NCBI GenBank assembly: GCA_036245805.1
Contig: BTRK01000003.1
Coordinates: 8,618,001 to 8,682,000, forward strand
Origin: Pristionchus mayeri
Taxonomy: Eukaryota; Nematoda; Chromadorea; Rhabditida; Neodiplogasteridae
DNA: 64,000 nt
Direction of reading: 5' to 3'
The position numbers and the translations under genes were made by a program. This document shows, piece by piece, positions 58 through 64,000 of this stretch. A model generated the notes under the pieces. The model ran no database searches and was not told the DNA's origin. It was given only the letters and a program-made list of their open reading frames with translations. How positions within the stretch are numbered: the stretch's first letter is position 1; each line of letters starts with the position of its first letter.

Positions 58-812
58 TTATTCACCACTATTAACGGTGATATTCAGTTTGCTCGTGTAA
101 CAAGGGTAGCGTGCGAAGTATGACTCCTCACTCATTGCTCTCGCCAGGTCCTCGATTGCCTTCCTCTCGTCACTCTCGAGTCGTCTGACCTGCACACAAA
201 TTTCATCATTAGTTACACCTCAGCAGCAATATATATCAAATTTAAATCTTAATCATATGAAGAAAGATATTCAGGTAATGCGATACAACTTAATGAGCAT
301 ACAAAATAAGAGGGTAATATTCTTACCTCCTTAATCACTGTGCCGACCATGCCAAGAATCATGCCGGTGCGGGTGGAGTTGTACTCGACCAGAAGTGGCT
401 GGTAGCCCAACAATGCAGAGAAGATCTGAGAAAATTATTAACTACTACCATGGTTTAAATAATTTATAAAACTCCGTTCCTGCCATTCAAAATTTTATAT
501 ATTTTCTTATTCAATTTAACATTAGAGGAAACTCTCACTACCGTTAAGCTCTTCTAAAATTTCCGAATGTATAATAAAGCATTTCGTATTGGAATACTAG
601 ATACCACATTCAAGTGGTGCGCGAAGTTGTAGAGGATGAAGTCGAAGGCGAACGTGAAGAAGCTACCTGAAAATATCATTTTGTGTGTAGAAAAGCTGGC
701 TGCATTTACGAACATTTCAAGATGTTTTTATATAGTAAATAAATATGCTACCCACAACGTAGTAAACCACCACAGTAGCCGCCACCTTCAGCGTTTCGCG
801 GAGTGTCGGCAT
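58..812 (-). CDS. LCPA-family membrane protein, divergent C-terminus (4 exons)
   Basis: Not a recognised gene. Exons on the minus strand are 752-812, 605-666, 327-425 and 58-189, giving 117 codons plus stop. The ATG follows directly on a TTGCAG acceptor. The first two exons together encode 41 residues (start M-P-T-L-R-E-T-L), the same length and M-x-x-L-R start as the first exon at 63386 and 61782; here that exon is split by an extra ~85-bp intron. Residues about 9-30 are hydrophobic and likely span a membrane. Exon 3 is again hydrophobic and matches the P-S-L-L exon of relatives. The last exon is acidic/helical (R-R-L-E-S-D-E-R-K) and lacks the F-E-R and L-C-x-P-A-x-A-A tail. Function unknown. 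The family upstream motif lies at 868-881. Confidence 0.62.
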
Positions 813-1805
813 CTGCAACATAATATTTAAAAAAATAAAAGAAATATAAAAGTCACAGATATTACAACTGCCCTAGAACAGTTATGATGGAGAAACAAAC
901 GAAAACCATCTCAGAGTGTATTACTGAGTAGTACTGTGCACGACAAAATTTATGTCAAAGTATATCAAATCTGGTGACATAAATATAAGAGAGACTATCT
1001 GAGAGAATCGAGCAATTTTACCCATGACCCGTACAGCGAAAAATAGATTTCCAATTTGAATACCTATCCAGGGTCAACTTTTCACGTAGATCAAGAAAAT
1101 CGACCTTACAGAGCCGTATCTCTGACCCCTCATTCTCTGTGGTGCGCCGAACGGGGCGGTCGGTTTTTGAAACTTTTGAACGGCTTATCCAAACTCCATA
1201 CATTTATAGTTATGCTGAAAGAGCTCGACGAGATAAGAATTTTTCCTGTTGGGTGTGAAGGGCTAGCTCATCAGTGAAAAAAGTTATGGCCGATTGAATT
1301 TAAAAAATGTCGTCCTGAAAAATTTTTCAAAAAAAGGGGAAAAATAAACAATTTCATTAGATTCCTCATGCAAAAGTACCCCCAGTGTACCAAATTTGAT
1401 TGCAAAACGTTTTCTGGCATCCAGTCAAATGGTCGACCGAAGACCTCGGACTTGAACGTTTTCGAACGAAAAAATTAGTTTTTTGAGGAAATCTTTTTTT
1501 AGATCAACTTCTCGTGAACTGTGATGTGCAAATTCGGATTCTACGAGGGAAAACACACCAGAAATTGTATTTCTCGTAAAATTCTGAGATATCAAATTTT
1601 TCGACTTTCTCGACCTCAAAGGTGCGAAATTCTTTCCCTAAAATTCCAAGCATAGGAGCATTTAGGGTTTTTTTGTGCATGAATGAATGTCAAAATTTGA
1701 ATACTCAAGGGCTCACGAAACGAGTTGCCTTCCTAATCATACAGCTAAAGAATTTGGCTTTGGGATATTAGAAAAACGTCACTAATCGATAATGTACACT
1801 CTAAC
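813..1805. other. Non-coding stretch between two family genes
   Basis: No convincing exon on either strand. On the minus strand 868-881 is a variant of the family upstream palindrome, 56 bp before the start at 812. About 1018-1740 is AT-rich with long A/T runs and looks like interspersed repeat, but I see no terminal inverted repeats. The last two exons expected for the gene to its right should lie here and were not found. Confidence 0.4.
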
Positions 1806-3126
1806 CTGGCAAAGTGCACTATGTGAAGAGCGTAGTTCTCACAGATAGCACTAACGTGATTGATAGGCACACCGACGGCGAGCAAGTTCACAGCGATCGT
1901 GTGGACAAGGTCTGCAAGCATTATTATCGACTCATTTTGCACAAATGTATTTTTTAACATTGTTTTCATCCCCTAATATCGAGGGCATATAATATTTACA
2001 TATTTACAATGTTCTCCCGAAAACACAGTCACAGTCTCGACACAGTCTCGACTTTTTTTCTTGACGACAGCTTATTTTACCAAAGAAATACTCACTCGAC
2101 TCGGCCGCCAGTTCATCGATTTTCTTCCTCAGATTCACTTTGAGCCTCCATTCGGTGACCTCTTTGAATAAAGCAAAGACGAGGAAGAAGGAGCGGCCGA
2201 TGTTGAAGGCGAGTAGAGAAGGAGGGGAAGTATCACCAAGGAAGATCTGAACAATGATTTATCAGTATTGTACTTTCATATAGTAGCATGTCAGTTCGAA
2301 TGAATTAGTGTAAACAAGAATTGATTTCATTTGGAATCCTTGAGGGAAAGGAAAAGTGGCGAGAGAGTGGAGAGAAAAAGAACTATTTCAATCTTAAACG
2401 TAATGACATTCACAGCGTTCTGACCCCCATTGTTCTCTCCAGATAAGGGTAGATAAAGGGATTAATATTTTGAATTTTCCCGCGAAAACCCAAACTGCAA
2501 ATAGGCTGTTTGAGAGCGCTTCGATAATTGATAATCCTCTGAAACGTAAAACAAGGGCCCCAATTTGATCACTCTGAGCACTTTTGCATCTCATAGTTGG
2601 AGTGAAACATAAATCAGTCTGGTCAGTTCCGTTCACCGAGAGGGCGATTGACGGAGGTAGATTTAATATTTCAGAAGGATTTCAAGTATACTGATTGCAC
2701 TTCGACACAGCTCCCTTTTCTGTCGAGTCAGAATGCTGTGCATTGAACTATCGTGTTTCTAATTTCACTGTAACATCGATTTCTTCGCTAAAACTACCGC
2801 ATGATACAGTTTTTTTTATTATTTAAACTTGACCAAAAACCAGTGCACGGCCCACCTTCTTCACCAGGCTTATCAAAATGTGAAGAGCTACAATAAACTA
2901 GGAATATTCTCCGCAACCGTATCTTCCGATTCTTACTTGTGGAGCGAATAGTACAGATACTCACCTTCAACGCGAGGCAGGTCCAGCTGTTGAGCTGGAA
3001 ATCGATGCCCCAAAACATTCCGAATCCAATTACGATAATCAGGATCATATGCAGTAGAGAGGGAGAAGAGTTGGCAGAAGCCATGCTCTTCCTGAGAGAA
3101 CCTATAAATCTGAAAAAATCTTCCAT
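1806..3126 (-). CDS. LCPA-family membrane protein, 3' exons not found
   Basis: Minus-strand exons 2965-3126, 2096-2246 and 1806-1911 join in frame. The ATG at 3126 follows a TTTTCAG acceptor. Exon 1 encodes 54 residues with a hydrophobic segment at about 24-40 (H-M-I-L-I-I-V-I-G-F). Exon 2 contains P-S-L-L-A-F-N-I-G-R and then a charged stretch, and exon 3 reads A-V-G-V-P-I-N-H-V-S, both matching the gene at 38579-40753. A possible upstream exon (3330-3384 region, M-I-I-V-F-Y-M-W-W) has an acceptor and a donor but was not connected. The expected exons ending in F-E-R and L-C-x-P-A-x-A-A are missing from 813-1805, so the gene is probably truncated or ends differently. Function unknown. Confidence 0.5.
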
Positions 3127-5744: not shown

Positions 5745-5875
5745 CGTATTCAGGCAGTTGAGGCACTTTTCGATGAATTCATCGAGGATGACGACGATTA
5801 AATGAAGAGCGACGAGAATAGAGAGAGCAGCAGAGCGGTCGCCGTGGACCACAACGACTCGCGAAGCGTCAGTAT
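5745..5875 (-). pseudogene. Broken first exon of LCPA-family membrane gene
   Basis: Minus-strand counterpart of the intact first exon at 63386-63508. It keeps the CAG acceptor, the L-T-L-R-E-S-L-W-S-T-A-T start, the I-L-D-E-F-I-E motif and the GTCAGT donor. The start codon is ATA instead of ATG, and the exon is 131 rather than 123 bp, so the frame is lost. No downstream exon is present; the foldback element begins in the following intron. Confidence 0.75.
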
Positions 5876-5968
5876 CTGTCAAAATTATATTAAATTTACA
5901 GATTTTAATATATTTATGAATAAATAAATAAATAATATACGAGTAGGACTGAAATCAAGGTATAACAA

Positions 5969-5982
5969 TTGTAGCTAAACAG
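5969..5982 (-). promoter_or_regulatory. Family upstream palindrome (degenerate)
   Basis: Minus-strand CTGTTTAGCTACAA, 94 bp upstream of the broken exon at 5875. Its mirror partner at 63248-63261 reads CTGTTTAACTACAG. Confidence 0.5.
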
Positions 5983-6301
5983 ATTGAAAGAACTAACAAA
6001 CGTTAAAACTTCAAAATTTATCGTTCATTGTGAGTCCACTCAAAACTACTGAAAATGTACAAGGTAGAACAAACCTTCTAAACAATGTATATGGGGAATA
6101 AGGGTTGTGATTAGTAATGTATGATATTAGCAGCAGAAAACAAAACCGAGCGTTTAACGAATTCAATGTATATCATAAAACTAGAGAGAAACAAACGAAT
6201 ATTTGAAAAAGATACACCGAATCAATAGGAAGGCAAAAGTTTTTGAAGATTACGGTAGTTCTGTTTGCTGCTCAGCTCGGTCATGACTCTGATTATTGTA
6301 C

Positions 6302-7652
6302 TCAAGCAGCAGGAGGACGGCACAGCTCGAGCGTTCTGGAAGTAGAATTATAAAGTTCCCTACTAAAAATTTAACGAATACACTTTCATAATAATACGTC
6401 GTTGATAATGGCCTAGCACTGTTCATTCGCGAGCCCAGTCTCGAAGATGGAATGTACCTTTACTTTTCCTTTTTACGTTCTTACTCCGAAAATGATAAAT
6501 TTATAAATGTGAAAATCACAGAGCACACACTAAACATTTAAAAGTGGAAATAGACGATCAAATGTGACTTTACCTCTCTCCAACGGCGATGGTCTCCTCC
6601 AGATTGGGAATAAACTTCTTATGCATGACAGAATTACCGATCCTCTGGACGATCCACAGAGTTTCTCGCGTATAGCTGAGCTCGAAAGTCACCGTTTCCT
6701 GATAAAAATAAATTAACGCCGAGTTTAAATAATAAAAGGAACAACAGCTTCGAACATAAGATTTCACAAAAAATACTAGTTAAAGAGTTCACAAAAAATA
6801 CTAGTTAAAGAGCTTTTCTGTTTAATCTATTGATACACGCGAATGGCATATTCAAAAGCTCCCTAGGAGAAACAGGGCTCAGAAATATCACTACCGTAAA
6901 ACTTTCCAAACGCCTCAAAGTTTGTCTTACCTCATATTGGAGGCGAACTTGTCCAATTTGTTGTCCCGATACGAGACAACTGAGCACGAGAGAGTGGAGG
7001 TGCTTGAGGTTCGTAACGCAAAAGTCGACTTCCCTCCTGCAATAAAATCGAAAAATGACGATTTAGTGAGAGAAATAAACAAAAACGAAGTAGAATGAAT
7101 ATAATTAAGAACTCACATGATAGTAAAACATGAATAATAGATAGAAATGATATGAAATCAAATAAAATGTATAAACATGAAGTAGCCACACCTGAGAAAC
7201 CAGCCGATCATGAGTGGAATACACCTGTGGATACCCACAAGGGCGAGCGATCGGCCGATGTTGAGAGCGAGTAGAGAAGGCACACAACAGTCACTGTGAA
7301 CGACACGCTGAACACAGTCAGGATTACAGTGATAAAGCAAAGAATATTGCTTAATTTTGTAGACGAACGGCCTACCACCCTATGCAAAATTAATACGCAA
7401 GCAAGTAAAATTATTTATATATTAAAGGTGAAATACATTAACCGGAACAATCTCACATACACGCAGCGCATATGCAACGCGTCCAATCTTAGGATCAGGG
7501 CATCGTCCTTATTGGGTACCATCGATGTATAAATACCGCAACATAAATAAGAAACTCACTGATTTCATGAAGCACAGACACATTCGAATGAATCGATCGA
7601 CGAAGAAGGCAAAGAGACGAAGGACGAATCGAGAACTGAGCACGATCAGCAT
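6302..7652 (-). CDS. LCPA-family membrane form, start region damaged
   Basis: Minus-strand exons 7560-7652, 7192-7307, 6931-7036, 6574-6698 and 6302-6335 join with compatible phases into 157 codons plus stop. Exon 1 carries a hydrophobic segment (M-L-I-V-L-S-S-R-F-V-L-R-L-F), exon 2 P-S-L-L-A-L-N-I-G-R, exon 3 G-Q-Q-I-G-Q-V-R-L-Q-Y-E, exon 4 F-I-P-N-L-E-E-T-I-A-V-G-E-R, and exon 5 ends T-L-E-L-C-R-P-P-A-A-stop. Compared with the mirror copy at 61782-62961, the normal ATG and the next few bases (about position 7680) are deleted and a 1.1-kb foldback element lies just upstream. The in-frame ATG at 7652 could serve, but would lose ten residues including M-x-x-L-R. Function unknown; possibly a decaying gene. 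Confidence 0.58.
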
Positions 7653-7694
7653 CCACCACAGAAACCCGCGAAGAGTCTTTAATAAAGATATTAG

Positions 7695-10428: not shown

Positions 10429-10920
10429 AAAACAATCACTAAATTAAAAGATTACCTAGGTTAGTATAATTTTGTTGAAAAATTGAACAGGGCTTAAAGC
10501 AACACAAATATTTGAACTGTCTTTCAACAGATTCCAATGGTGAGCATATTACAGTACTTCAACATTTATCGTATAGACTGAATTAACACAATTCCCATTA
10601 AAAATATGGAACTTTCTACGTGCAACAGAGCAGTAACAGAAAAAAGGTCAACTGATAATTACATCATCATTTAAAAGAAATTTGGCTAGACGAGCATAGG
10701 ATATGAGATTATTGGAGCAACAATAGCAAAAGATAACAGTACGGAAAAACACATATTAAGGCTTCTTGTTATTGAATTGTACGACATTATTATGGTAGAA
10801 TCGAAGATTCTATTTATTGTAATATCAAGCGCTTTCACCTATTGTATTTGCATTAACTACATAAACATGATAAAAGTTTTAATTAAGTTACCGTACTTGC
10901 ATTATCAGTAGACGAAAAAT
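10429..10920. other. Spacer with family upstream motif
   Basis: No gene. Minus-strand 10517-10530 reads CTGTTGAAAGACAG, the motif shared by family members; its partner is 60104-60117. It lies about 430 bp before the gene at 7652 once the two inserted elements are subtracted. Confidence 0.5.
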
Positions 10921-12273
10921 TCAAGCGCCCACTGCTGGACGACACAGCATGAGCGTTCTGAAATTGGAAGATCGCGACAATTTTTAAATCAATTTTAATT
11001 AGTTAATTTTTACATAATGAACTGATATGTTTAAATTTGGATCCTTGCGAAAATGGCTGATCTACATGCCAAACATTGGAATTAGATGAAATAAATAAAT
11101 ATCAATCAATACCTCTCGAAGATGTCGATGATCTCCTTCAGCTTGGGAATTAGCGCCCTGTGTCATTTAATTTACAACGAACCTTTCAGTTGTTTCTAAT
11201 CAGATATGATCTACTGCTATGCTTACCATTATAAAAGCTAAGCGAAGATTCTACTTATTCAAACCTACCATTGAGGAATCCTAACGGGAGCGAGCGTAAC
11301 TCAATTAGTTTTTGTCGAGAAGTGTGGTAATTTTTTGCGATCGAGAGTCATTCTTACCCTGCTCTACATTTCCCGTTAATCTCGGGTTTTTTTTATCTTA
11401 TTTATAAGTTTATCTATCGGAAATTGATGGGTTTCGGAACCGCTCACCTCAAATGGTTCCGATGCGTGTATCTAACGTACCTGACAGCTTGAGTGACACA
11501 TTCCTCGATCATTGATATGCCGCCTCTGATTTTGCGTAGTGCTCTAATTGCTCGGATCTGATATGGAATGCCTTTTTTGGTTATTTTTCAATAATATGCG
11601 GATATTTGTCAGGTGCGCGAAATGTTTAACGAGTTTATAATTGAATTCTGTGCGCATTTCCGTAAGAATAATGGAGTGTGGGGAGGGGACTGAGAGGTCA
11701 GTGATCAAGAAACTGGTAATTCATAGTGGCAGCAAGAAAAAAACAGAAAGTGAAATTTAACTGACTTCAAAAGGACTGGTAATCAAAGTGGCAGCGGGGA
11801 GCAAAAACAAAAAGTGAGATTTGACTAATTTGAACATTACTAACTATAAATACATGAACAGTCCCTCTTCTACTTTCTCTATTATTTTCCCGTAATACGC
11901 CCCTTTCCCACTCGCCATGCTCGTGTTTCGCAATTGATTAATTAAGTTAATTAGACGAAAAATATCATACGTTTGAATAATACCTCATAGATAGCGAGAA
12001 GCGCTCGCACTTGATCGGTGGACTGACGGGAGTTCAGCGCAGTCATAGCTGCCGATTTTATAGACTTGGCCATCTGATCGAAGACGTCCATCCTCTCCTC
12101 GACCTCCCTGCAAACCAAAAGAATTTCGACCATATATTAAGATTTCCCTTTTTGGATAATTTTGTATTTTGATCGGGTATGTTTTAGGTGTTCTATTAGA
12201 CAGCCAACTGATGAGTTATGTTCGCTTTGATTGATGTACTTTAAAAAAGAACCTACCGTATCAGCGCATTCAT
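10921..12273 (-). CDS. LCPA-family soluble form, 99 aa (5 exons)
   Basis: Minus-strand exons 12257-12273, 11984-12107, 11481-11557, 11113-11157 and 10921-10957 total 300 bp, 99 codons plus stop. The first exon encodes only M-N-A-L-I; upstream in frame is I-P-K-L-R-N-S-T, as if an older ATG (now ATT) had started M-P-K-L-R. The main helical exon reads R-E-V-E-E-R-M-D-V-F-D-Q-M-A-K and A-L-N-S-R-Q-S-T-D-Q-V-R, followed by L-K-E-I-I-D-I-F-E-R and T-L-M-L-C-R-P-A-V-G-A. No membrane segment; probably helical and possibly coiled-coil. The mirror copy is 48785-59730. The upstream palindrome is at 12483-12496. Function unknown. Confidence 0.62.
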
Positions 12274-12482
12274 AGTAGAATTCCGGAGCTTCGGAATGCG
12301 AATAACTGAACATTCATTGAAAATCATTTGAAATTTTGAAAAAATAGGGAGCACACAAAAACTAGTATAATTTTCAGAGTGAGATTTAATCAATACCCAA
12401 TTCCATCAACTTTCATCCTATGAAAAAGTATACACGATATATAAAAATTAAAAAAAAGATAATAGCAATTCAGATATTTTAA

Positions 12483-12496
12483 CTGTCTTTCAACAG
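12483..12496 (-). promoter_or_regulatory. Family upstream palindrome
   Basis: Minus-strand CTGTTGAAAGACAG, 210 bp upstream of the start at 12273. Confidence 0.5.
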
Positions 12497-12729
12497 AATC
12501 GACGAGCGAGCATCAAAACACTAACTTCAGAATTTATAATACTGAATGAAACATAGCACTTCATGAATCTATCGGAAAATATCAATGTTCAGAAGATATA
12601 CAAACGGCGTGATGTATAATAAACATCGCATAATGATTGAATAACAAATCATGGTTGTAATAGACGTTGCCAACAAGTACAGTAAAATATCACTGCACTT
12701 GCACTACTAGTCGACGAGTATTTCTGGAT

Positions 12730-13709: not shown

Positions 13710-13865
13710 CTAGAACTATCGTATGTTAATCAAGAAAATAAAACATTATTCTGCATCGCAGACCGCAAAAAGCGATGAAAATGGGGTACAAGGAGAGTTT
13801 ATCATTGACAATTCGAAATTTTTTCAAAATATAAACAATATTATTAAGCACATCAGATATTGCAA

Positions 13866-13879
13866 CTGTTTTCAAACAG
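13866..13879 (-). promoter_or_regulatory. Family upstream palindrome
   Basis: Minus-strand CTGTTTGAAAACAG, 157 bp upstream of the start at 13709. Confidence 0.5.
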
Positions 13880-48604: not shown

Positions 48605-48618
48605 CTGTTGAAAAACAG
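48605..48618 (+). promoter_or_regulatory. Family upstream palindrome
   Basis: CTGTTGAAAAACAG, 167 bp before the ATG at 48785. Confidence 0.5.
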
Positions 48619-48784: not shown

Positions 48785-51700
48785 ATGAATGCGCTGATAC
48801 GGTAGGTTCTTTTTTAAAACACCTACATCAAACCGAACTCTATATTCTTAATCAAAAAGTCAATACCTTTGTCAATTTAATAAAAAAAAAACTTAATCGA
48901 TCTAAAACAAAAATGACTAAGGTGTCTATTCTCGTGTTTCGTATTTTTCAGGCGCGCAACATAGCTCATCAGTTCGCTATCTAATAAAACACCTAAAACA
49001 TACCCGATCAAAATACAAAATTATTCAAAAAAGGAAATTTTAATATATTGTCGAAATTCTTTTGGTTTACAGGGAGGTCGAGGAGAGGGTGGACGTCTTT
49101 GATCAGATGGCCAAGTCTATAAAATCGGCAACTGTGACTGCTTTGAACTCCCGCCAGTCCACCGATCAAGTGCGAGCGCTTCTCGCCATCTATGAGGTAT
49201 TATTCAACATTTGATATTTCACGTGAAGTTACATACTTTGAACGTATTTAATTATGATACACGAGTGTAATGTGGGAACAGAATGGATAAAGTAGAAGAG
49301 GGACTGTTCATGTTTTTATAGTTAGTAATGTTCAAATCAGTCAAATCTCACTCTCTGTTTTTGTTCTCTGCAGCCACTTTGATTACCAGTCCTTTTGAAG
49401 TCAGTCAAATCTCACTCTCTGTTTTTTTTCCCTGCTGTCACTATTAATTACCAGTTCACTTGATCACAGACCTCTTAGTCCACTCCCCACACTCCATTAT
49501 TCTTAAGGAAATGCGCACAAAGAATTCAATTATCAACTCGTTAAACATTTTGCGCACCTGACAAATATCCGCACATTATTGACAAAAAAATCAAAAAGGC
49601 ATTCCATATCAGATCCGAGCTATTAGAGCACTAAGCAAAATCAGAGGCGGCATATCACTGATCGAGGACTGTGTCACTCAAGCTGTCAGGTACGTTAGAT
49701 ACGCGTTCCGGAACCATTTGAGGCGAACGGTTCCGAAACCCATAAATTTCCGATCGATAAACTTCATGGGTATAATAAAAAAAGCCCAACATTAACGGGG
49801 AAAATGTAGAGCAGGGTAACAATGCCTCTCCATCGCAAAAAAATGACCATGCTTCTCGGCAAAAAACTAATTGAGCTACGCTTGTTCTGGTTAAAGGATT
49901 CCTCAATGATGATGTGAGAACAGAAAGCGCAGTCCGTGGTGTGGTGCCGGGATTTAGTACATTTGATTCAAAATATACGCGGAATGCGGAAAAGAAAACG
50001 TTCCGCGTATATTTAGAACCAAATGTACTAACTCTCGCCAACACACCACGGACTGCGCTTTCTGTTCTCACAGTACGTTTGAATACGTATGACCTTCGTT
50101 TAGCATGTAAAATAGTAACCATAGCAGTAGATCATATCTGATTAGAAACAACCGAAAAATGGGTGGTAAATTAACTGCCACAGGGCGCTCATTCCCAAGC
50201 TGAAGGAGATCATCGACATCTTCGAGAGGAATGGATTGATAATTATTTACTTTATGTAATTCTAATGTTTGGCACATAGACAATCCATTTCCGTAAGGAT
50301 CCAAATTTAAAAATATATGTTAATAATGTAAAGGGGATCCCTCACCCTTAGCCAATTACTGATTATTTCCCCATCCCTGTGAATAATTAATTAGAATAAT
50401 TAATCTAATTAAATATCGTATTTAAATAATTTAAATATAATCAATCAATACTTATTACCGTAATCTCACCATTTGAATTCCCACCGTTACTTGACACGCA
50501 GTATACTCAGTTTACTTTTACGTATAATTTCGTAATTGTTTTTCTCTTCGATTTTGTCCGTTGTTTACGTGGCGTTGCTCGTTTTTCCTGTTTTGTGGCG
50601 ATAATAATTATTATAATTTAATACCATCGCATTACTTGAGTTCGTAAGAGGGCGTGAGAGTGTTTTGGTGAGAAGGTTTTTCTGTTCGTCGTCTCAGCAG
50701 TCGTCTTGTTTTCCTTTCGCAATCTTTTCCATTCTTGAGTCTTCTCTTTCCTTTCCTTTCTTGTCGAGCCAGTTAGCCACACTATCATTTGTGAGGTGTG
50801 CCAGCACTATCATTTGTGAGGTGCTGAACACTTGGTGTCAATTGTGAACCGGGAGTGTACTGCAGCTTGGTGTCAGTCGTGAGCCAAGTCGTAACCGTGT
50901 CTGGGTGACCGGTTCGATCAGTGATTTCATTTGTGTGCACGAAGTGCTGCCCAAATTCTGAATTCGCTGTCCGGACTCGAGCCTGATTCGGGATTTGCCG
51001 AGGCTAACCTCTTATTTTCCTTGAGTTGGATTAACTCTGAGAGGGGAATAGGAGTACGTAGTCCTTGCATGGGGGCCAAGCCAAGTTCGAAGAGAGGATA
51101 TTGAAGTGATTTGACGTGAGAATCGCCGATTTTCGAGTTAAGCGTTGCGTGTTCGCGTCGCGGTCGATTATTAAAATCAGCCAATTTTTGAGATTGATTA
51201 AAATTGACTCATTTTAATCGCGTGTCGTGTTCTGATCGTGATTGAGTAAGCAAGTGTACATTGCAGAATGGCCGACGAAGGTCTTCCCCAAGCTACCAAT
51301 GGTGTGGATAAGACTCTCGCCGCCCTTCAAGTGGGAGACAACAATGGTGTGGAGAAGCCTACAAGTGGTCAGTCTGGATTGAATGGCACGGATATTGTGG
51401 GAGGGGATAAGGAGAGTGGTCATGGAGATGGAATTACCCCGAGTGGTGACCAGGGAGAAACTAGTGCTGGTGGTGGAAATCAGATCAGTACGGAGCAAGA
51501 GCAGTCGAGTGGTAGTGATTCGGTGACTGATGGCAGTAATGGGACATTGGCCAAAGTGAACATGAAGAGAGGTGTTTCAGGAGAGATGGAGATCGACGGC
51601 GATGAGATCATAGATGTCGAGAAGCTCACCGCTGAGGAAAGAGAACGAATGAGCGCTCTCTTCTCTTTGAGGACGTTGGACCAGTCTGCTGCTGAAAGGG

Positions 51701-54700
51701 TGGGTCCAACTACTCGATTGAAACTGAGCGCTCTAGAAAAGAGTAAAAAACCTCGAGATGCTGTGAGAAGAATAGAGATGAGAGTAGAGAACCTGGAAGA
51801 GGCTGTAATGAAAAGGGGATGTTAGTGGTGGAAAGAAGGGAAGAGCTGAGTTGGCGAAACTGTTCGCTCCATTCAAGGGCAGAGTAAAAGCTGACCTCGA
51901 GCACGTAGATACAGTGTTGCTTTGTTATGCTACCATGAAGGCTCAGTGTGACGATGCGAAAGCTACTCTTGAGGAAGAGAGAGAAAAAGTGAAAGAGTTG
52001 TTAGAGGCAAAAGAGCGGTCTAGTGCCCTGCGGAGCAGCCTTACTGAAGAGAGAAAGATAGTAAGAGAGCTGACGGAAGCAAAGGATAGGGCGATAGACG
52101 GAACAGAATTCTCGTCCTTGGATGAGCTCCGTTTGCAATATGATCAAATTGTTGCGCTGGCTAGTCGTGAGGGAGATGTTGTGGAGAATCAGCAGGAAGA
52201 GAATGAAGATGATGATGATGACGATGGTAGTCTAGATATGAAGGTGGAGTTAAGGAGAGTGATCGATGAGCATCTGGAAAGAGTGGGACTGAAAACTCTT
52301 GTGTCTAGTTCAAACGAGATTCTTCGATTGAGATTGCGAGTAGCTGATCAGAAGAGACTGATTGACATCGTGATGGATGCTTTCCAAACAAATAATGTTG
52401 ATAGTCTGATCGAAGCTGTTCAGGTCGCAGCAATGGAGAAGGAAGAACTGCTGGCACTGAACGCTCGTCTGAGTAGTGATCTCGATTACTCCCTTCGCTG
52501 CTTCGAGAAGCTCGAGATGGAGAATCGTCAGACGGTGATCGAGAACAGGCAGCTGAGAAGAGAGAAAGAAGAAGAAGCAATGAGTGAGTGTCGGTTGAAT
52601 ACTTGTGATATGGAAACGCGTCTGATGAATAGGAGTTTCCTAGGGCATGAGGAGTTGGTGACTGAGACTCCCGTAGTTCAGAAGCCACCCAAGCCGAAGC
52701 CACGCAGCTCACTACGAGATGCGCAGTTGAAGCAGGATTCGGCGGAACTGATGTGGAGAAGATCAGAAGATGGAGAGCATCCCGGTCAGATGAGGATTGC
52801 CGGTCAGTACTCTAGTGAAACGGTGTACGAACGAGTTGAACAGAGTGCGGCTAAGCCTGCGCAGTTTTCTTTTCCGAAAACGGACAGTGTTGAGAATGGT
52901 TTTCACTCTGAAATTACACGGTCACCAGTGCTCGTGAGTGCATCTGATCTGCCGCCGATGGTTAAGTGGAATGGTTCCTTGGATAGGTGGAGGGAGTTCA
53001 AAGATGCGTTCCTTCTGCGGTTTGAGGCGAAGGGAGATTACATTGCAAAGAGGATTCTGCCAGAGTGGTTAGAGGGAAAAGCGCGAGTGGAATACAGGGC
53101 GCTTCCCGATGAGTTCAGTGAGGATGACAAGTCTATCAATGATTGCATAGAGTGGATACGGGATAGATGCGCTGGTGGAAAGATGTTCGAGAGACTTGAT
53201 CTAGATCGCAAGCTGACAAGTTTAGCTGTGAATGGGAGGAGAGTTGATGTAGTGACGGATGAGTTGGAGCATCTGATTTCCAAATTACATCCTGGTGATC
53301 TGCTGAAGCAAGAGGAAGAGAGACAAGTGAAACTGCTTCGCTTGTACCAGGGTTCGAAGGAGTACATCGAACTACTCAAGCTTTCTAGACAGAGAAAGTC
53401 ATACGATGATATGAAGGAACATCTGCGCACTGTGGAATATGTTGAGAGGATGGAGAAGAGCAACAGAGGTGTACCCCAAGGGAATGCTCGCCAGGGAAAT
53501 GCGCATAGATTCTCGAATGGTAGTAATGGTGGTTACGGAGGAATGAGGAATCGGCAGACGTGTGACGGTTGTGGTGGAATTGGACACTTCAGAAACAACT
53601 GTGGTACAGTGAATGCACAGAAGAGAGATGATGCATTCAGTTACGTTAGGAGGACGTGTGATGGGTGTGGAGGAGTAGGTCATGTGACGTACTTATGTAC
53701 AACTCCAGATCACTTGAAGAGACAATGGGGAGGTGGTGCAAGGGGTCCGAGGGATGTGCCCCAGATGATGAATGTACCCCGACCCCCACCCAATCAGAAT
53801 ACGATGATGGCTCCTAATACTGGCGGAGATAAACAAGTACAGCAGCCATTCACTACGATATACCAGCCTCCAGTGAATGGACGTGGTGGTGGTAACGGAC
53901 GAGGGAATGGATTCAGAGGACGTGGTAGAGGTGGTGGATACTCTCAGGATAAACCAGAGTGGTCAGCAAGGTAGTGGGACTGATGGAGGTAACAATACGG
54001 GAAATGCGTTCGCGGTGAAGTGCGAAATCGATGACATGGAAGGGAGTGATGATCGAGAGGTTCGAATTGCTTCAGTCAATCGATGGTTTGGCTATTGGAG
54101 AGGATGCAAGTCTAGAGGAGCTTGGCATGCCTCGTCCAGAGGATGATGAAGGAGTTGAGGGAATGGAAGAACCCGACAAACTCAAATCAGTCGACAATGT
54201 TGTCGAGAATCAGAATCTCGAACAAGTCAATGGTGGTGGTGATAGTGTAGTGGAAGTGAACGAAGTAGAAGACCCGTTGTTTATAAGGAGATCCAAGTGT
54301 GTCCAAGGTGAAATTGGTGGAGTCAAAGTGGAAGCTGTTCTGGATACTGGTGCTGAAGTGTCCCTCATTGATAAGAGAACAGTGGATAAGATGCAAGGAG
54401 TGCGCAAGGCAATCCTATGAAGACGCTTGGAGTAGTGGCATTGGATGTGAATATGGAGATAGGGAGGAAGTGCAAGGCTGGATTTTTCGTGGCGGAGAGT
54501 GCTCCCGCCATCCTTCTGGGAAGGAATGCACTGGCGAAGATGGGATTGGAATTGAGAGAGGAATGTCCACAGGTGGAGAGGAGTGTGGATAGTGCAGTGG
54601 TGTTGGGAACAAGTTGCATTGCCCCTGGAGAAATGGGAATGGTGCTTGTGGGGGGAGGCCTTCGTGGTCAGGGACCAAAGGTGCTCATCAGTGATCGAGA

Positions 54701-57700
54701 GGAAGTGGTTGAGGGAACCAATGATGGGGATGCGATTGTGCGAGTGCCTATATGGAATGGTACTGATGAGGATTTGCGATTCGAGAGACATGAAGTGATT
54801 GGTGAATGGCATCGTGTCAAGCAAAGTGGTGTTGAGAAGCATGATGTCTCGAGTGTTCTGAAGGTGAACATGGTTAGGAAGAGTGATCGGAAGATCAAGG
54901 CGAGAGCGGATGTTTTCGCGGTGAATGAGGATGATCTGGGGAGGTTGAAGAATATGAGTTGTGATGTGAGATTGAGTGGAGTTACTACTCCGATTCGTCA
55001 GAAGGAGAGACCTGTGCCTTTTGCACTCAAACCAGCACCGAGGAAACTGCTGGATAAGATGATTTCACAAGGTGTGATCAGAAGATCGAACTCACCTTGG
55101 TTGTCTCCAGTTGTCCTAGTGAAAAAGAAGGATGGCAGCATACGAATCTGCATTGATTTCAGACGAGTCAATGTGGTGACGAGGGAAGATGCTTTTCCTC
55201 TGCCGCTGATTGAACAGATTCTGCAATCCTTGCAAGGCAAGAAAGTGTTCACAGTGATGGATTTGGCTGCGGGGTTCTGGCAAGTGCCGCTCAGTGAAAA
55301 GAGCGCGGAGGTCACTGCGTTCGCGACGATGGGAGAACTCTATGAGTTCACGATGCTTCCATTCGGGTTGAACATATCTCCGGCAATCTTTCAGAGAGAG
55401 ATGAGTAAGGTGTTGGAAGATGAGTTGAAGAAGGAAGGAAGAGAAAGAGTTGTATTCTGTTATATCGATGATGTGCTTATTGCTACTGAGGATGTAGAGA
55501 AGCATGAACAAGTTCTCGCGAGAGTACTTGATCGATTGAGAGATAGTGGATTGCTATTGAACATGAAGAAATGTAAAGTGATGGTGGATGAGATCGAATA
55601 TCTTGGTCATAGATTGTCGAGTAGTGGGGTACAGATGGATGATAAGAAGGTTGTTGCTATTCGAGAGTATAAGAGACCTGGCTCAACTTTAGTCATTTCT
55701 TGGATTGACTGGATATCTCAGACGATTTGTACACTCGTATGCATCGATTGTAGCTCCACTTCAAAGATTGGTAGTGACTGCAGGTCGACGGTTACTTTGG
55801 ACAGATCAAGCGAATGAGGCATTCAATGTTCTGAAGGACAGAATTTCGTCTGCTCCAGTTTTGCAGCAGCCTGACTATGCTGGCGCAGAGGATGGTAGTC
55901 GGCCATTCATTATCACCAGTGATGCTAGTGGAAATGGGATTGGAGCAATGTTGAGTCAGAAGAGTGCAGATGGATTAGAGCGACCTCTCGCATTCTTTTC
56001 GAGGAAACTGAAGGATTGTGAGATGAGTCTGCATGTGGTTGACTCAGAAGCGCTCGCTGTCTACGAGGCTGTGATGAGGTGGAAATATCTACTCTATCAT
56101 ACTCGTACGATTGTTCGAACTGATCACCAACCATTAGTGACGTTGTTGAAAAGGAAGAACGTTGCATCCAGATTGTTGAGATTCGCAACTGAGCTGCAGG
56201 AATACCCCCTCGAGATAGAGCATATCAAGGGCAAATCAAACGTGGTTGCGGATGCACTCAGTAGGAATCCGCGAGAAGAGAAGCTTGGTGAAAGTGATGA
56301 GATAGAAGATGTGGGAGTTGTGTGTAACATGCTGACTAGAAGTAAGACAGCAGTGGCGAGATTAGAAGAAGAGGAGAGAAGGAGAAAGACTGAAGAGAAT
56401 GCTGTCGAGAATCAAATTCTGAAACAGTGGAGCATTGACCAGTCAAAGGATGAATGGGTTGTGTCGATGTTGGAGAAACTGAAGGAGGTTGAACGTGGGA
56501 AGAGAGAGATCACGGAGGAAGTGACAGTACCTGGAAGCACAAAGAGAACTTCTCTTGCTGATTGGGTTGTGCACAAGGGAGTACTGTATCTGCTGGGGAC
56601 TGATCACGAGAGACGATTGTATGTGCCAGAAGGGAAACGATTGGATGTTGTGGAGAATATTCACAGTTCACCTTTATCTGGACATCTTGGAACGAAGAAG
56701 CTTGTCCAGAAGATCTTGAACGAGGCATTCTGGGGAAGCATCTGCAAGGATGTTCAGACGGTTTTGAGGAGATGTGAGAGATGTCTGCAGGCTAATGCGC
56801 AGAAGAGGATGATTCCTCCTCTGCAGCCTCTCATAGTGAATTACCCAATGGAAGTTGTTGGTGTTGACTTGATAGAGATGGGTCGTGGGAAGAGCAATGG
56901 AAGGTATATCCTGACAGTGATAGACCATTTTACGAAATTCGCTGGTGCGTTTGTGTTGAAGGATAAGAAGGCTGAGACTGTTGCCGAGGTTTTCATGACC
57001 AAATGGGTGTTACAAGGTGGTCGAACCCCAAAAACTCTGATGTCGGATAATGGGACGGAGTTTGTGAATAAGGTAATGGCTGAGATTGCTAAGAGATTCG
57101 AGATCGAGAGAAGACAAACTTTGCCGTACCATAGTCGAGCGAATGGTTTGACGGAGAGATTCAATCGTACCATCGTGGAAATTCTGAGGCGGATCAAGAT
57201 GAGGGATGATGAATGGGAAGAGGCACTTCCATTCGCTTTATTTGCCTATAATGCATCGCCACATGGATCAACTGGCATTTCTGATGTATGGGCGTGATGA
57301 GAAGTTGCCGTGTAGTCAACTTCCCCAGTCGAATCCAGCATATACGGTGGACTTGGATGTCGATGAATATAAGAGACGGATGTGTTGGATGATGGAAAAG
57401 ACCAGAGGGGTTGTCGCTGCTGAGCTTGAAACGGAGAGGAGAAAGATGAAGGAGAAGTATGATGAGAAGCACAAGCATAATATGAAAGTGATGCCGAAAC
57501 CTGGTGATCGTGTCTATTTGAGAGTAGAGGCGAAGGTGGGAGATGTGAGGAAAATGATGGATCACTATGAGGGCCCTTACCGTGTTATTGCAACAAGCAA
57601 CACTACGGCGACAGTAGTACGTGCTGATGACGGGTTGGAGAATGGTAGAGAGAAGGATAAGAGAGTAGTGCAGTGGGATCGGTTGCGATAAGTTCCCAGG

Positions 57701-59730
57701 GAAGAGATGTGTGCACGATGACATGTGAGGAAAGAAAAGAGGTGAAAGAAGTTCATTACAGAGCTGGTGTGGAGAAGACCTCGATCCTACATCCAGATGG
57801 GATCTGCAATGAGTGCCGACCAACGAGGATTGGAAACGTCTTCGAGGATGACCCTCAGTTGGCGGCATGGAAGGACAAAAGATTCAGTACAATGAGAGAA
57901 CTCGCTGCATACCTAGATCGGAAGGACGACAGCAAGAAGCTGAAGAGTCTGGAGTTGTCCCAGGCGATTGATGATGCATGCATGGCAAAGGACTTCGAGC
58001 TTGAAGCTGGCGTACAAGAATGACCTGTGTGACTGTGCCATCGCCGAGACTCGCAGAATTGCCATCTGTGGAGTTGAGTTGGAGGGCGAAGAGGCACGAG
58101 TTTCTGACGCAGTCTCTGAGGTTGTTCCTCGGAAAGGCGGTCGGAGCTCTCGCAGGAAGATGATGGTGATGGTACCCGACGACTCCATCTTGACCAGATG
58201 TGGTGGAGCATGGAGAGAGGCAGAGGCCATCGAGTACGTGGATGAGCCTGATCTGTGCACTCGGTTCAGTGCCATGAAGAATGATAAGAATTGGCCGGAG
58301 AGTCTGGTCGTGATCCTGAAGCGGAGTTTCGGAGAGTCGACTCTGTTGAAGCTGAAGAGGAACTTGATCGGAATCGCCAAGGACATCGACATCTCGATCT
58401 ACGTTTGCGCGGACATTCTGCCCAAGAAACCTGATCTGCTGACGCAAGAGACCATCAATGCTAATCGAGCATGGCTGATGCAGTGGATCATGGAGGATCG
58501 CCCGGAGAACCTCGTGTTGCTGACAGTCTGCTCGGGTCTACTGGAGAAGAATTGCCCGCTGGCGCTGCTCTTCTACATCAGTCACAAGGAATGCAAGAAG
58601 CTCTTCGAGACAGCTATTCGACATATCGCATACGGAGAACCACTCCTGCCCCTTGTTGTGGAGAAGCCGATTGGGGAGAGTGAGAAGAATCTGGTACGAG
58701 CCGAGAAGGAAGATGGCGAGACAAGCTGCTCCTGTCGACAAGGATGTCACTACCAAGAAGAACGGACTTAGACCTCTCTCAACCGTCAATTGTTTCATCT
58801 GCAAGGAGTACGGACACTACTAGTGGGATTGCCCGAAGAACCCGAAGAATGGGGCCGATTGAGGACAATCGCTTCGAAGGAGGGGGGCATGTAAAGGGGA
58901 TCCCTCACCCTTAGCCAATTACTGATTATTTCCCTATCCCTGTGAATAATTAATTAGAATAATTAATCTAATTAAATATCGTATTTAAATAATTTAAATA
59001 TAATCAATCAATACTTATTACCGTAATCTCACCATTTGAATTCCCATCGTTACTTGACACGCAGTATACTCAGTTTACTTTTACGTATAATTTCGTAATT
59101 GTTTTTCTCTTCGATTTTGTCCGTTGTTTACGTGGCGTGGCTCGTTTTTCCTGTTTTGTGGCGATAATAATTATTATAATTTAATACCATCGCATTACTT
59201 GAGTTCGTAAGAGGGCGTGAGAGTGTTTTGGTGAGAAGGTTTCTCTGTTCGTCGTCTCAGCAGTCGTCTTGTTTTCCTTTCGCAATCTTTTCCATTCTTG
59301 AGTCTTCTCTTTCCTTTCCTTTCTTGTCGAGCCAGTTAGCCACACTATCATTTGTGAGTTGTGCCAGCACTATAATTTGTGAGGTGCTGAACTCTTGGTG
59401 TCAATTGTGAGCCGGGAGTGTACTGCAGCTTGGTGTCAGTCGTGAGCCAAGTCGTAACCGTGTCTGGGTGACCGGTTCGATCAGTGATTTCATTTGTGTG
59501 CACGAAGTGCTGCCCAAATTCTGAATTCGCTGTCCGGACTATAGCCTGATTCGGGATTTGCCGAGGCTAACCTCTTATTTTCCTTGAGTTGGATTAACTC
59601 TGAGAGGGGAATAGGAGTACGTAGTCCTTGCAATAATACAATAATTAGCTAATTAAAATTGTAACAAAAATAGTCGCGATCTTCCGTTTTCAGAACTCCT
59701 GTGCTGTGTCGTCCAGCCGCGGGCGCTTGA
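48785..59730 (+). CDS. LCPA-family soluble form interrupted by a retrotransposon; damaged donor
   Basis: Exons 48785-48801, 49073-49196, 49613-49689, 50184-50228 and 59694-59730 are the counterparts of 10921-12273. Sequences are close: R-E-V-E-E-R-V-D-V-F-D-Q-M-A-K, I-E-D-C-V-T-Q-A-V-R, L-K-E-I-I-D-I-F-E-R, T-P-V-L-C-R-P-A-A-G-A. The donor after exon 4 reads GAGAG/GAATGG where the mirror copy has GAGAG/GTATTG, so the last intron, which also holds the 9.3-kb Ty3/gypsy element, probably cannot be removed normally. Read-through would end about ten codons on. The product would keep all but the last 11 residues. Probably a recent pseudogene or a shortened gene. Confidence 0.58.
49914..50071. mobile_element. 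Hairpin MITE, 158 bp
   Basis: Ends GTGAGAACAGAAAGCGCAGT and its complement, with a second palindrome (TACGCGGAA ... TTCCGCGTA) in the middle. It lies in the third intron of the gene at 48785; the mirror intron lacks it. Confidence 0.8.
50327..51069 (+). repeat. 5' LTR
   Basis: Starts TGTAAAGGGGATCC and ends AGTCCTTGCA. It is followed at once by TGGGGGCCAAGCCAAG, which is in the right place for a tRNA primer-binding site (starts TGG). Confidence 0.9.
51268..53974 (+). pseudogene. gag of the Ty3/gypsy element (frameshifted)
   Basis: Structural capsid/nucleocapsid precursor. The first part (51268-51825) starts M-A-D-E-G-L-P-Q and is Gly/Ser-rich. The frame then shifts near an AAAAGGGG run at about 51811 and continues to 53974. 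The second part has a long coiled coil (E-E-E-R-E-K-V-K-E-L-L-E-A-K-E-R), a retrotransposon capsid region (W-R-E-F-K-D-A-F-L-L-R-F) and two CCHC zinc knuckles, C-D-G-C-G-G-I-G-H-F-R-N-N-C and C-D-G-C-G-G-V-G-H-V-T-Y-L-C, followed by an Arg/Gly-rich tail. About 900 codons, long for a gag. Confidence 0.82.
54031..57691 (+). pseudogene. pol: protease, RT, RNase H, integrase (frameshifted)
   Basis: Protease active site L-D-T-G-A-E-V-S-L-I-D near 54340; the frame shifts at 54420 inside the protease, whose C-terminal I-L-L-G-R-N-A-L is in the next frame. Reverse transcriptase has F-T-V-M-D-L-A-A-G-F-W-Q, L-P-F-G-L-N-I-S-P and the catalytic Y-I-D-D (near 55465). The frame shifts again near 55690. 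RNase H has T-S-D-A-S-G-N-G-I-G-A and R-T-D-H-Q-P-L. Integrase has an H-H-C-C zinc module and D, D, E catalytic residues in V-G-V-D-L, S-D-N-G-T-E-F and G-L-T-E-R-F-N; another shift occurs near 57285. Not translatable as one polyprotein as it stands. Confidence 0.87.
57673..58861 (+). pseudogene. Extra ORF after integrase, with a C-terminal zinc knuckle
   Basis: Between integrase and the 3' LTR is about 1.2 kb of coding-like sequence in at least two frames (57673-58023, then 57968-58771), with a likely shift near 58015 and another near 58700. It contains C-N-E-C-R-P, a helical middle part (N-R-A-W-L-M-Q-W-I-M-E-D-R) and, close to the LTR, C-F-I-C-K-E-Y-G-H-Y-stop-W-D-C, a CCHC knuckle interrupted by a TAG at 58821. 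There is no signal peptide or membrane span, so it is not envelope-like; it is more like a second gag-type nucleic-acid-binding protein. Function unknown. Confidence 0.6.
58876..58889 (+). other. Polypurine tract
   Basis: GAAGGAGGGGGGCA immediately before the 3' LTR, as expected for the plus-strand primer. Confidence 0.75.
58890..59632 (+). repeat. 3' LTR
   Basis: Same length as the 5' LTR and nearly identical (differences include C/T at 58993 and T/G near 59129). Confidence 0.9.
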
Positions 59731-60103
59731 TATTAATTTTTCGTCTACTGATAATCCAAGTACGGTAACTTCATTTAAATTTTTATCTGTGTTTATGTTG
59801 TTAATACAAATACAATAGGTGAAAGCGATTGCTATTACAACCATAACAATATCATATAATTCAATGACAAGAAGCCTTCATTTGTGTTTTTCCGTTTTGT
59901 GATCTTTAGCTAGTACTGCTCCAATCATCTCGTATCCAATGCTCGTCTAACCAAATTACTAGTACATGATGTTATAATTATATGTTGTTTTCCCCCTGTT
60001 ACTTCTCTGCTGCACGTAGAAGTTTCCATCTTTTTATGTGAAGTGTGTTGATTCAGCCTATACGATAAATCCTGAAGTATTGTAATATGCTCATTTTTGG
60101 AAT

Positions 60104-60117
60104 CTGTTGAAAGTCAG
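60104..60117 (+). promoter_or_regulatory. Family upstream palindrome
   Basis: CTGTTGAAAGTCAG, preceded by TACGATAAATCCTGAAGTAT. About 400 bp before the ATG at 61782 once the mariner-type element is subtracted. Confidence 0.45.
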
Positions 60118-60204
60118 TTCTAATATTTGTGTTGTTTTTAAGCCCTGTCCAATATTTTAGATTTTTTATACTAGCATCGGTAACCTTTTAATCTAGTGAT
60201 ATTT

Positions 60205-61781: not shown

Positions 61782-62961
61782 ATGCCGCCTCTTCGCGGTT
61801 TACTGTGGTGGGTGTTGATCGTGCTCAGTGCTCGATTCATACTTCGTTTCTTCGCCTTCTCCGTCGATCGATTCATTCGAATGTGTCTGTGCTTCCTGAA
61901 ATCAGTGAGTTTCATGTTAATGTTGCTGTATTCAGCCATTGAAGATACATATGAAAATTCTGATCGTGAGACTGAACATTCCTGTGCGTTGCATTTTACG
62001 AGAGAGAGTGTTCCGTTAACTGTGATAGTACTAGGCAGTTATATGATGAAATGCTGCGGTATAGTCTGTAACTCATGTGACGCTAATCCTGATTGCGTTC
62101 AGCGCTTCAATCACTATTGTGTGCCCTCTCTACTCGCTCTCAACATTGGTCGCTTACTCGTCATTGTGGGTGTCCACAGGTGTATTCCACTCATGATTGG
62201 CTGGTTTCTCAGGTTTGCCTACTTCATTTTTATATATTTTATTTTATGTTCTTCATATCTATCGATAATTTATTTAAGTTTTACTTTAATGTTTTTAATT
62301 ATATTCATTCTGCTTCCTTTATAATTTTCCTACTAAATAGTCACTAAATCCTCATTTATTTCCAATTTTTATTGCAGGAGGGAAGTCGACTTTTGCGTTA
62401 CTAACCTTAAGCACCTCCACTCTTTCGTACTCAGCTCTCTTGCATCGGGACAACAAATTGGACAAGTTCGCTTCCAATACGAGGTAAGGAAAATTTTGAG
62501 GCGTTTGTAAATTACGGTAGTAATATTTCCAGAACTGTTTCCGGAAGTTTTTCAAAAAGCCATTTGCGTATCTCAATAGATTACACAAAACAGTTTTGTA
62601 CTTTGCTTATCATCGAAGCTGTTGTTTAGCTTTATTGTTTGTACTCTCTCAATTCATTGTTATTAGGAAACGGTGACTTTCGAGCTATGCAAGAGAAACT
62701 CTGTGGATCGTCCAGAAGATCGGCAATTCTGCCATGCAGACTGAGTTTATTCCCGAACTGAAGGAGATTATCGCCGTTGGGGAGAGGCATGATCCCATTA
62801 AATCATATTGTGAATGTTGTGAAGTATGTTGTGAAAATTGAAGTAATTCGTTATTTATTAGTGGAAATCTTTAAAATTCGAATAAAAGCATCATATTTAC
62901 TATGTGGTAGTTTTATTCTACTCTCAGAACGATTGAGCTGTGCCGTCCTCCAGCAGCTTGA
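61782..62961 (+). pseudogene. LCPA-family membrane form with a frameshift (5 exons)
   Basis: Exons 61782-61904, 62103-62212, 62378-62483, 62667-62786 and 62928-62961. Exon 1 encodes 41 residues, M-P-P-L-R-G-L-L-W-W-V-L-I-V-L-S then a basic/hydrophobic part; exon 2 P-S-L-L-A-L-N-I-G-R-L-L-V-I-V-G; exon 3 G-Q-Q-I-G-Q-V-R-F-Q-Y-E. Exon 4 lacks 5 bp present in the mirror copy (6574-6698), so the frame shifts and stops within the exon. Its donor is GC (GAGAG/GCATGA) instead of GT. Exon 5 would be T-I-E-L-C-R-P-P-A-A. The start, lost in the mirror copy, is intact here; the two copies carry complementary damage. Confidence 0.66.
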
Positions 62962-63385
62962 GAGCTGAAATCATCGCCGTGACTGAGCAGAGAAGCAAGC
63001 AGAACTACAGTAATCTTCAAACATTTTCACTTGACTGTATATTCCTCTTTAATATTCCTCTTTTTCTCTCTAATTTTATGATGTACATTGAATTCGTTAA
63101 CCGGTCAGACATTACTAATCACAAACCTGTTATTTCTCACATACATCATTTAGAAGTTTTGCTCTACCTTGTACATTTCACTAGTTTTGCGTTGACACAC
63201 AAATAACGATACATGTTGAAGTTTTAACGTTTGTTGATTCTTCCAATCTGTTTAACTACAGTTATTATACCTTGCATTCGGTTTTACTCGCTTTTATAAT
63301 TGCCTTTACTTATTATATCGCATATTTCTTATAATATTTTCTCGAAAATATAAGAAAATCGTTCAATTTAATATTATTTTGGCAG
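62962..63385. other. Intergenic region with upstream palindrome
   Basis: CTGTTTAACTACAG at 63248-63261, 125 bp before the next start. Nothing else supported. Confidence 0.45.
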
Positions 63386-64000
63386 ATGCGGACGCTTCGC
63401 GAGTCGTTGTGGTCCACTGCGACCACTCTCGTTTCCCTCGTCACTCTTTATTTCATAATCGCTATCCTCGATGAATTCATCGAGAACTTCCTCATCTACC
63501 TGAATACGGTCAGTATTTTCGTTGAAATACGGGGGTTTTGGCTGATGTTTATTGAATTTGAACGTGTTGCTTTGGTTGGATGGGATTTTGTTGTATATTC
63601 CTTCTCTTTTTTTCACACGAGAAAATATGTGGCTGTTTTTCGATTTTTCGATATAATTTATTTCCATGGCACGCCGTGATAGCTTGATCATGTTCCTTTC
63701 AGGTTGTTCTTCTCAATGAATTCACTCTTCCCTCACTGCTCGTCCTCAACATCAGTCGTGTAGTATTCCTTTTGAAGCTTATGGTCGTCAATTTACTGCA
63801 AGCACTGCGACCGAGGAACCTCCAGTGAGCACTTCGAAAGAAATTAAGGCTACCACATTTTTAATTATACCGACTCTAAAAGCCGGTTGAGATTATCTAG
63901 CGTATTTTTGAATCTTTCGCCTCGTCACTACACATGCTTCATGCAATGGCAATCTTTAGCTTTATCGATTTATTCTTGCTAATTTTAGAGGATAGGAGCT
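63386..64000 (+). CDS. LCPA-family membrane form, runs off the window
   Basis: Exon 1 (63386-63508) follows GGCAG and encodes 41 residues starting M-R-T-L-R-E-S-L-W-S-T-A-T with a hydrophobic middle (V-S-L-V-T-L-Y-F-I-I-A-I-L). Exon 2 (63703-63824) reads T-L-P-S-L-L-V-L-N-I-S-R-V-V-F-L-L and ends at CTCCA/GTGAGC, phase 2, as in the membrane form at 38579. If that donor is not used a TGA follows at 63826 and the protein would be 81 residues. Later exons should lie beyond 64000. Mirror copy 5745-5875 is broken. Confidence 0.62.

Follow-up and report, generated by a model that had tools for sequence, protein, structure and literature searches.

What are the genes that recur, with repeated exon lengths, along a short stretch of the Pristionchus mayeri genome, and how might so many neighbouring copies be expressed? 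The stretch in question, here called the window, comprises 64,000 nucleotides (nt) of contig BTRK01000003.1 (C3:8618001-8682000, C3 denoting this contig), and a preliminary description had reported in it about 20 copies of an unrecognised gene family with a fixed exon architecture. The window is the middle of a mirror-symmetric cluster of approximately 130 kb, in which both arms of an inverted duplication carry arrays of genes in head-to-tail order, with a short hairpin element between neighbours. The analysis directly supports the family, the phase of its exons, its constraint, the element, the covariation within the element and the genome-wide association of element and family. We consider it probable that paralogues of a real, fast-duplicating nematode family without recognised relative are arranged in polycistronic arrays that would be resolved by trans-splicing of spliced leader 2 (SL2).

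Exon architecture of the family

Exon models were rebuilt from splice signals and family boundaries, the family setting the boundary where a donor had been lost. A scan of the window in six frames yielded 13 stretches resembling the second exon (E2; 12 copies, one of them split) and 14 E3-like exons, and an E4 pattern gave 18 matches, 12 of them genuine-looking, to which two further E4 exons read by eye can be added. The number of about 20 copies holds when fragments and genes of the transmembrane (TM) type are counted (Table 1). Exon lengths keep their phase: E1 is 2 mod 3 in 12 of 12 models, E2 is 1 mod 3 and E4 measures 37 nt in 13 of 13, and E3 is 2 mod 3 in 11 of 13, the other two having a five-exon form in which the frame is restored by an additional exon of 77 nt. 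Intron lengths, unlike exon lengths, are spread over all three phase classes (models N, O and X3 were excluded from these tallies). The exon series 47/124/122/37 recurs exactly three times, as described (copies E, G and L), while the series 74/124/134/37 is complete only once (copy I), the related copies reading 74/124/137/37, 74/121/134/37 and 74/103/134/37.

The sum of the exons is a multiple of three in all 10 short-type window models with a first exon, a property that does not equal a working gene: one of the ten has an in-frame stop and two have lost a donor. The ending T-L-x-L-C-x-P-A-x-A-A-stop is exact in 6 of 14 terminal exons in the window and varied in the remaining 8. Of the 12 models that include a first exon, 8 have AG directly before the ATG and 4 do not. 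This AG is best read as a putative trans-splice acceptor in an operon-like array. The frame is open and the internal splice sites are canonical in five (D, G, H, I and M) of the 11 short-type window models; the defects of the others are given in Table 1. The observation as a whole is thus confirmed, with the restriction that the architecture is fixed in the short type (13 models, 11 from the window and two from a second cluster beyond it) and not in the whole family.

Organization and distribution of the clusters

The genome comprises 290.8 Mb in 73 contigs; within the window, positions 28601-37999 were covered by scripts and a repeat search and the remainder was read letter by letter. More family members were found in both flanks, on the minus strand to the left and on the plus strand to the right, and extend the cluster to about 8.590-8.720 Mb of C3. 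The window covers no more than the inner portion of a larger family, which includes TM-type members. The inverted duplication is imperfect and approximately 125 kb across (C3 8.593-8.718 Mb), with the window roughly central. Comparison of 244 kb with its own reverse by blastn revealed collinear arm pieces that are 77-97% alike around a centre near 8.65 Mb, and a nested inversion near C3 8.640 Mb, which corresponds to approximately 17.7-25.6 kb of the window. Genome searches, whose counts are lower bounds, found the family in a few clusters only: besides the one described, a second cluster on C3 at 9.081-9.085 Mb (copies X1 and X2 at 9.084-9.085 Mb), further members at C1 15.524 Mb, an E4 exon at C1 0.600 Mb and, at C6 11.875 Mb, exons E3 and E4.

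Coding status and constraint

The ratio of nonsynonymous to synonymous changes (dN/dS; Nei-Gojobori) ranges from 0.19 to 0.79 over 14 pairs, and its bootstrap upper bound is below 1 in nine of these. Six pairs chosen as separate duplications (H-A, I-B, D-X1, L-E, M-F and, for one exon, O-P) together show 71.5 changes at 1318 nonsynonymous sites and 60.5 at 416 synonymous sites, corresponding to a ratio of proportions (pN/pS) of 0.37 (p 2e-8). The public hypothetical protein PMAYCL1PPCAC_10538 is letter-for-letter equal to the spliced copy D, PMAYCL1PPCAC_10567 is likewise equal to copy X1 (C3 9.085 Mb), and the partial PMAYCL1PPCAC_10527 agrees with the hand model of a flanking gene over all its 151 amino acids (aa). 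A fourth protein, PMAYCL1PPCAC_10548 (partial), appears to leave the family reading frame part-way. All four are annotated without name or family.

According to PMC11544036, the P. mayeri annotation was made by the PPCAC pipeline with mixed-culture transcripts. As described in PMC7992802, this pipeline aligns P. pacificus proteins as well as transcribed open reading frames, retains the two best placements and discards models of fewer than three exons or 60 aa. No P. pacificus protein was among the matches of word-limited single-sequence protein searches, and from this and the design of the pipeline we infer transcripts behind the models of D and X1. This suggests, and does not prove, a transcript behind the public models, from either of two placements. 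An unrecognised coding family under constraint is therefore supported. The description of its members as real coding genes is upheld by the kept phase, the pN/pS ratio and the public model of D, and is qualified by the damage seen in about half of the modelled window copies.

Protein features and homology searches

A core of approximately 85 residues (E2-E3-E4) is common to the members; it is probably helical, and a short conserved motif forms its C-terminal end. In some members hydrophobic segments precede the core; the short members have a short first exon in that place. Hydrophobic stretches, defined by a Kyte-Doolittle mean of at least 1.4 over 19 residues, number two each in a flanking 198-aa protein and in copy P, one in D and none in L and M. 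No significant Pfam match was obtained for the 12 members scanned (best E 0.0061, to PhoU, in two members), NCBIfam held no significant relative of the family, the best E-value in a PDB sequence search was only 0.067, and IMG/VR contained no viral relative. The only protein relatives found by single-sequence searches are P. mayeri hypothetical proteins. AlphaFold modelled P0001 (D) together with P0002 (X1) as helices, with a predicted local distance difference test (pLDDT) score of 61 and no PDB fold match at E <0.001, and the model of P0003 (the flanking gene's public model) alone was too poor for use (pLDDT 44). The profile searches thus agree with the earlier failure to recognise a domain family and revealed neither a known family nor the gene of one transposon.

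An element between the genes

The intercistronic element consists, in this order, of a poly(A)-like signal, approximately 40 nt, a hairpin of up to five pairs and the motif UAYYU, and is usually followed after 50-150 nt by the AG ahead of the next ATG. A pattern search gave 52 candidates, 41 of which were retained by eye and aligned as seeds; these show N-ATAAA, approximately 40 nt, a 14-nt hairpin and GTTNNNATAYYT, with 95% of stem cells paired and three cells with double changes. The covariance model found 50 matches in 294 kb, and once three loci had been added and thirteen match-free loci dropped, the set comprised 53 elements with 52 distinct rows. In these rows the second stem pair is U-A in 40, C-G in 8, U-G in 4 and broken in none, and the eight double changes at this pair were reached by 0 of 500 shuffles; the eight C-G rows represent about five lineages, since six of these rows form three mirror pairs. 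The wobbles, 35 U-G against 1 C-A (20 against 1 among distinct hairpins, p 2e-5), are those of the sense strand. The double changes and the direction of the wobbles point to a short stem-loop in the sense RNA, as would be expected of the Ur element of SL2-resolved operons. The palindrome had first been read as a promoter element, a reading abandoned once the wobbles proved strand-specific and a poly(A)-like signal had been recognised. No Rfam model reached its cut-off anywhere in the window.

A strict pattern, written after the elements had been seen, occurs 31 times in 244 kb and not at all in 20 Markov simulations. A looser pattern, which allows one mismatch, occurs 60 times genome-wide (34 exact) and twice in a reversed control: 29 matches lie at C3 8.59-8.72 Mb, 4 at C3 9.08 Mb, 7 at C1 0.59-0.61 Mb, 2 at C1 15.52-15.57 Mb, 4 at C6 11.87-12.05 Mb and 2 at C3 34.0 Mb, the family's two C3 clusters thus holding 33 of the 60. 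In 39 of 53 elements a poly(A)-like hexamer lies 35-42 nt ahead of the stem, and UAYYU is present in 50 of 53, largely through selection. A script that also accepts chance occurrences found an AG-ATG after the motif within 150 nt in 25 of 50 elements and further away in 8; transposons occupy some of the gaps between element and next gene.

The genome contains both leaders that such an arrangement would involve. An SL2-type leader, GGTTTTAACCCAGTATCTCAAG/GTA (the slash marks the splice junction), has 58 matches at up to three mismatches, 18 of them exact, and none in the control. Repeated SL1-like units hold the exact SL1 sequence and a GT donor, and the Rfam SL1 model scored at best 48 bits against them, below its cut-off of 75. 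The presence of SL1 and SL2 sequences marks P. mayeri as a trans-splicing nematode.

In addition, the element occurs beside other genes. Behind a family gene at C6 11.874 Mb come an element and then a gene of a second family (MADNEDRPTG...), which has 135 matches genome-wide at E-values up to 10, many of them weak, and no Pfam match. At C6 12.054 Mb a gene of this second family stands approximately 190 nt after an element, and at C3 34.02 Mb a weak second-family match (E 0.003) lies some 2 kb before one. No gene of the first family was seen on either side of the element at C3 34.025 Mb, itself a weak match (27.6 bits).

Proposed polycistronic arrays and alternative explanations

In the arrangement that we favour, the arrays would be transcribed as polycistrons and each polycistron cut at the poly(A) signal; the hairpin-UAYYU element would draw SL2 RNA, with whose 5' splice site CAAG/GUA the motif can pair, and SL2 would be spliced to the AG before the next ATG. 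Any UAYYU can by definition pair with the SL2 donor, and this pairing is therefore not independent evidence.

Several points weigh against this arrangement. Polycistronic transcription and SL2 addition are predictions from genomic sequence. The double changes concern one stem pair only, a pair count equalled by 452 of 500 shuffles, and 11 of 52 rows have a broken fifth pair; moreover, the alignment, having been fitted to the structure, is biased in its favour, and related rows inflate covariation counts. Ten of 53 elements are without an NATAAA hexamer. UAYYU was a criterion in choosing all 41 seeds as well as the three loci added later, six of the nine unselected matches have it, the element upstream of the open copy G is without it, and the full UAYYUU is present in 11 of 53 elements. 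For 17 of 50 elements the script found no AG-ATG within approximately 300 nt, and the annotated copy D has lost the AG before its ATG. Twelve of the 60 genome-wide matches lie outside all named clusters, none of them exact. Finally, part of the constraint signal may predate decay, given that six of the copies compared (A, B, E, F, O and P) are either damaged or doubtful. As to function, it is a guess that the core is an assembly interface and that the membrane members have the short ones as soluble partners. We hold only tentatively, and with more doubt than confidence, the combined proposal of paralogue polycistrons of one membrane and soluble family, resolved by SL2 via a hairpin kept and compensated over approximately 50 duplicates, with the short members as co-expressed partners or decoys.

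It is less likely that the genes are real and monocistronic, the element being a 3'-end or transcription signal or a protein-bound DNA palindrome that was copied with them as they duplicated. Within a tandem array each element follows one gene and precedes another, and family copies alone therefore cannot separate this explanation from an operon; the element's concentration in the family's two C3 clusters (25 of 34 exact matches) as well as the elements without a nearby AG-ATG would suit it. However, compensatory and sense-strand wobble changes are better explained by an RNA hairpin than by a palindrome in DNA, there is often little promoter room between element and ATG, and at C6 the next gene belongs to another family; the element at C3 34.025 Mb, flanked by no family gene, argues in the same direction, but its match is weak.

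A graveyard of pseudogenes, once coding, now unexpressed and kept open by recent duplication, would account for the six of 11 modelled short-type window copies, and both modelled TM-type copies, that are damaged or doubtful. It is nevertheless improbable in view of the pN/pS ratio and of public models that are probably transcript-based; the elements beside the damaged copies B and J have lost pairs, two cases that prove little. That all exons are parts of one transposon's gene can hardly be credited and was rejected, since, for all the repeats, inverted copies and intermixed transposons of the locus, the scanned members carry no transposon domain, the copies lie in few clusters (as lower bounds), transposons interrupt the family, and the local transposon proteins have separate transposase-like, endonuclease and integrase domains.

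Features of the window

Table 1 Family copies and intercistronic elements in the window (positions count from its first letter; element scores are those of the covariance model)
Feature	Position	Strand	Exons (nt)	Score (bits)	Remarks
Copy A	17925..18765	+			E2-E3-E4 open; first exon unusable
Copy B	19231..20000	+			open frame; E2 donor lost
Copy C	41105..42038	+			in-frame stop within E2; GC after E3
Copy D	42317..43099	+	42317-42390, 42541-42664, 42831-42967, 43063-43099		123 aa; canonical internal splice sites; AA, not AG, before ATG
Copy E	44909..48377	+	47/124/122/37		open; weak GC donor
Copy F	48785..59730	+			mirror of M; donor after 45-nt exon lost; retrotransposon in last intron
Copy G	25848..27080	-	47/124/122/37		open; canonical splice sites; AG directly before ATG
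Copy H	24427..25412	-	74/121/134/37		open; canonical splice sites; AG directly before ATG
Copy I	23168..23964	-	74/124/134/37		open; canonical splice sites; AG directly before ATG
Copy J	22586..22660	-			first-exon fragment without ATG
Copy K	15552..15675	-			E2 exon, rest degenerate
Copy L	12730..13709	-	47/124/122/37		open; one GC donor
Copy M	10921..12273	-	17/124/77/45/37		five exons; open; canonical internal splice sites; no AG at ATG
TM-type gene N	38587..40753	+			TM exons, E2-like, E3, E4 (40717-40753); partial model by eye
TM-type copy O	61782..62961	+			mirror of P; fourth exon frameshifted
TM-type copy P	6302..7676	-	117/116/106/125/34		five exons; open; no start codon
TM-type gene Q	63386..63825	+			first two coding exons, by eye; probably extends past window
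TM-type fragment R	5745..5869	-			partial, by eye
TM-type gene S	61..812	-			starts MPTLRETLK, ends VNSGE-stop; without usual E4; by eye
TM-type gene T	1800..3093	-			TM exons and E2-like exon; 3' end not found; by eye
Element	845..927	-		65.4	poly(A)-like signal region, hairpin, UAYYU
Element	5946..6027	-		54.7	
Element	10494..10575	-		75.2	
Element	12460..12543	-		70.2	
Element	13843..13924	-		82.4	
Element	19051..19128	+		74.4	
Element	20300..20381	+		58.9	two stem pairs lost; after damaged copy B
Element	22820..22901	-		61.8	one stem pair lost; before fragment J
Element	24067..24144	-		74.4	
Element	25528..25609	-		71.2	
Element	27217..27300	-		60.3	without UAYYU; upstream of open copy G
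Element	40813..40892	+		54.3	
Element	42131..42212	+		75.8	
Element	43372..43453	+		69.2	
Element	48562..48641	+		60.8	
Element	60059..60140	+		75.2	
Element	63203..63284	+		63.2	

The retrotransposon in the last intron of copy F (50326-59188) is of the long terminal repeat (LTR) type, with RNase H and integrase domains, and its direct repeats are 99% alike over at least 300 nt; the insertion is probably recent. An element of the long interspersed nuclear element (LINE) type with an endonuclease domain lies in two pieces (15994-17394 and 20527-22385) that share an identical 300-nt stretch. Tc1/mariner-like transposase frames were found at 9063-10100 (open over 346 codons, domain-scanned) and 44005-44640 (only read). 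Long inverted repeats, 91-95% complementary (3696-5617, 7732-8805, 28492-28985, 31004-32699 and 45700-47048), are possibly non-autonomous DNA transposons, and a period-40 tandem repeat, listed as seven overlapping copies, lies upstream of copy G (27385-27759).

Significance and comparison with known systems

The main text of PMC11544036 makes no mention of operon, gene cluster, inverted, palindrome or gene family; the paper reports that CRISPR works in the genus Pristionchus. If the arrays are indeed resolved by SL2, the approximately 50 related elements would constitute a natural mutagenesis series for the needed parts of the SL2-recruiting signal. A new gene family would then be spreading together with its own RNA-processing signal, each new copy being expressible at once, which would be a concrete route for young genes to become active.

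The closest known counterpart is found in C. elegans, where operons resolved by SL2 with the aid of a Ur element were reportedly described by Huang et al. in 2001 and Lasda et al. in 2010; the element is said, in the latter work, to be a short stem-loop followed by UAYYUU, with a proposed pairing to the SL2 5' splice site. By sequence, the P. mayeri arrays appear to share with them, in the same order, a poly(A)-like signal, a short stem-loop, a UAYYU-type motif and a putative trans-splice acceptor, and SL2 genes are present in the genome. They differ in that adjoining genes are paralogues, all of a single family, conservation of the hairpin extends to its sequence over approximately 50 copies, the complete UAYYUU is the exception and the gap to the ATG is longer. 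With the orphan (taxon-restricted) genes of Pristionchus (PMC10348561) the family shares the lack of a domain, and the protein relatives that single-sequence searches found for it are all from P. mayeri; unlike such genes, it is clustered, has a fixed exon phase and is accompanied by a shared intercistronic RNA element.

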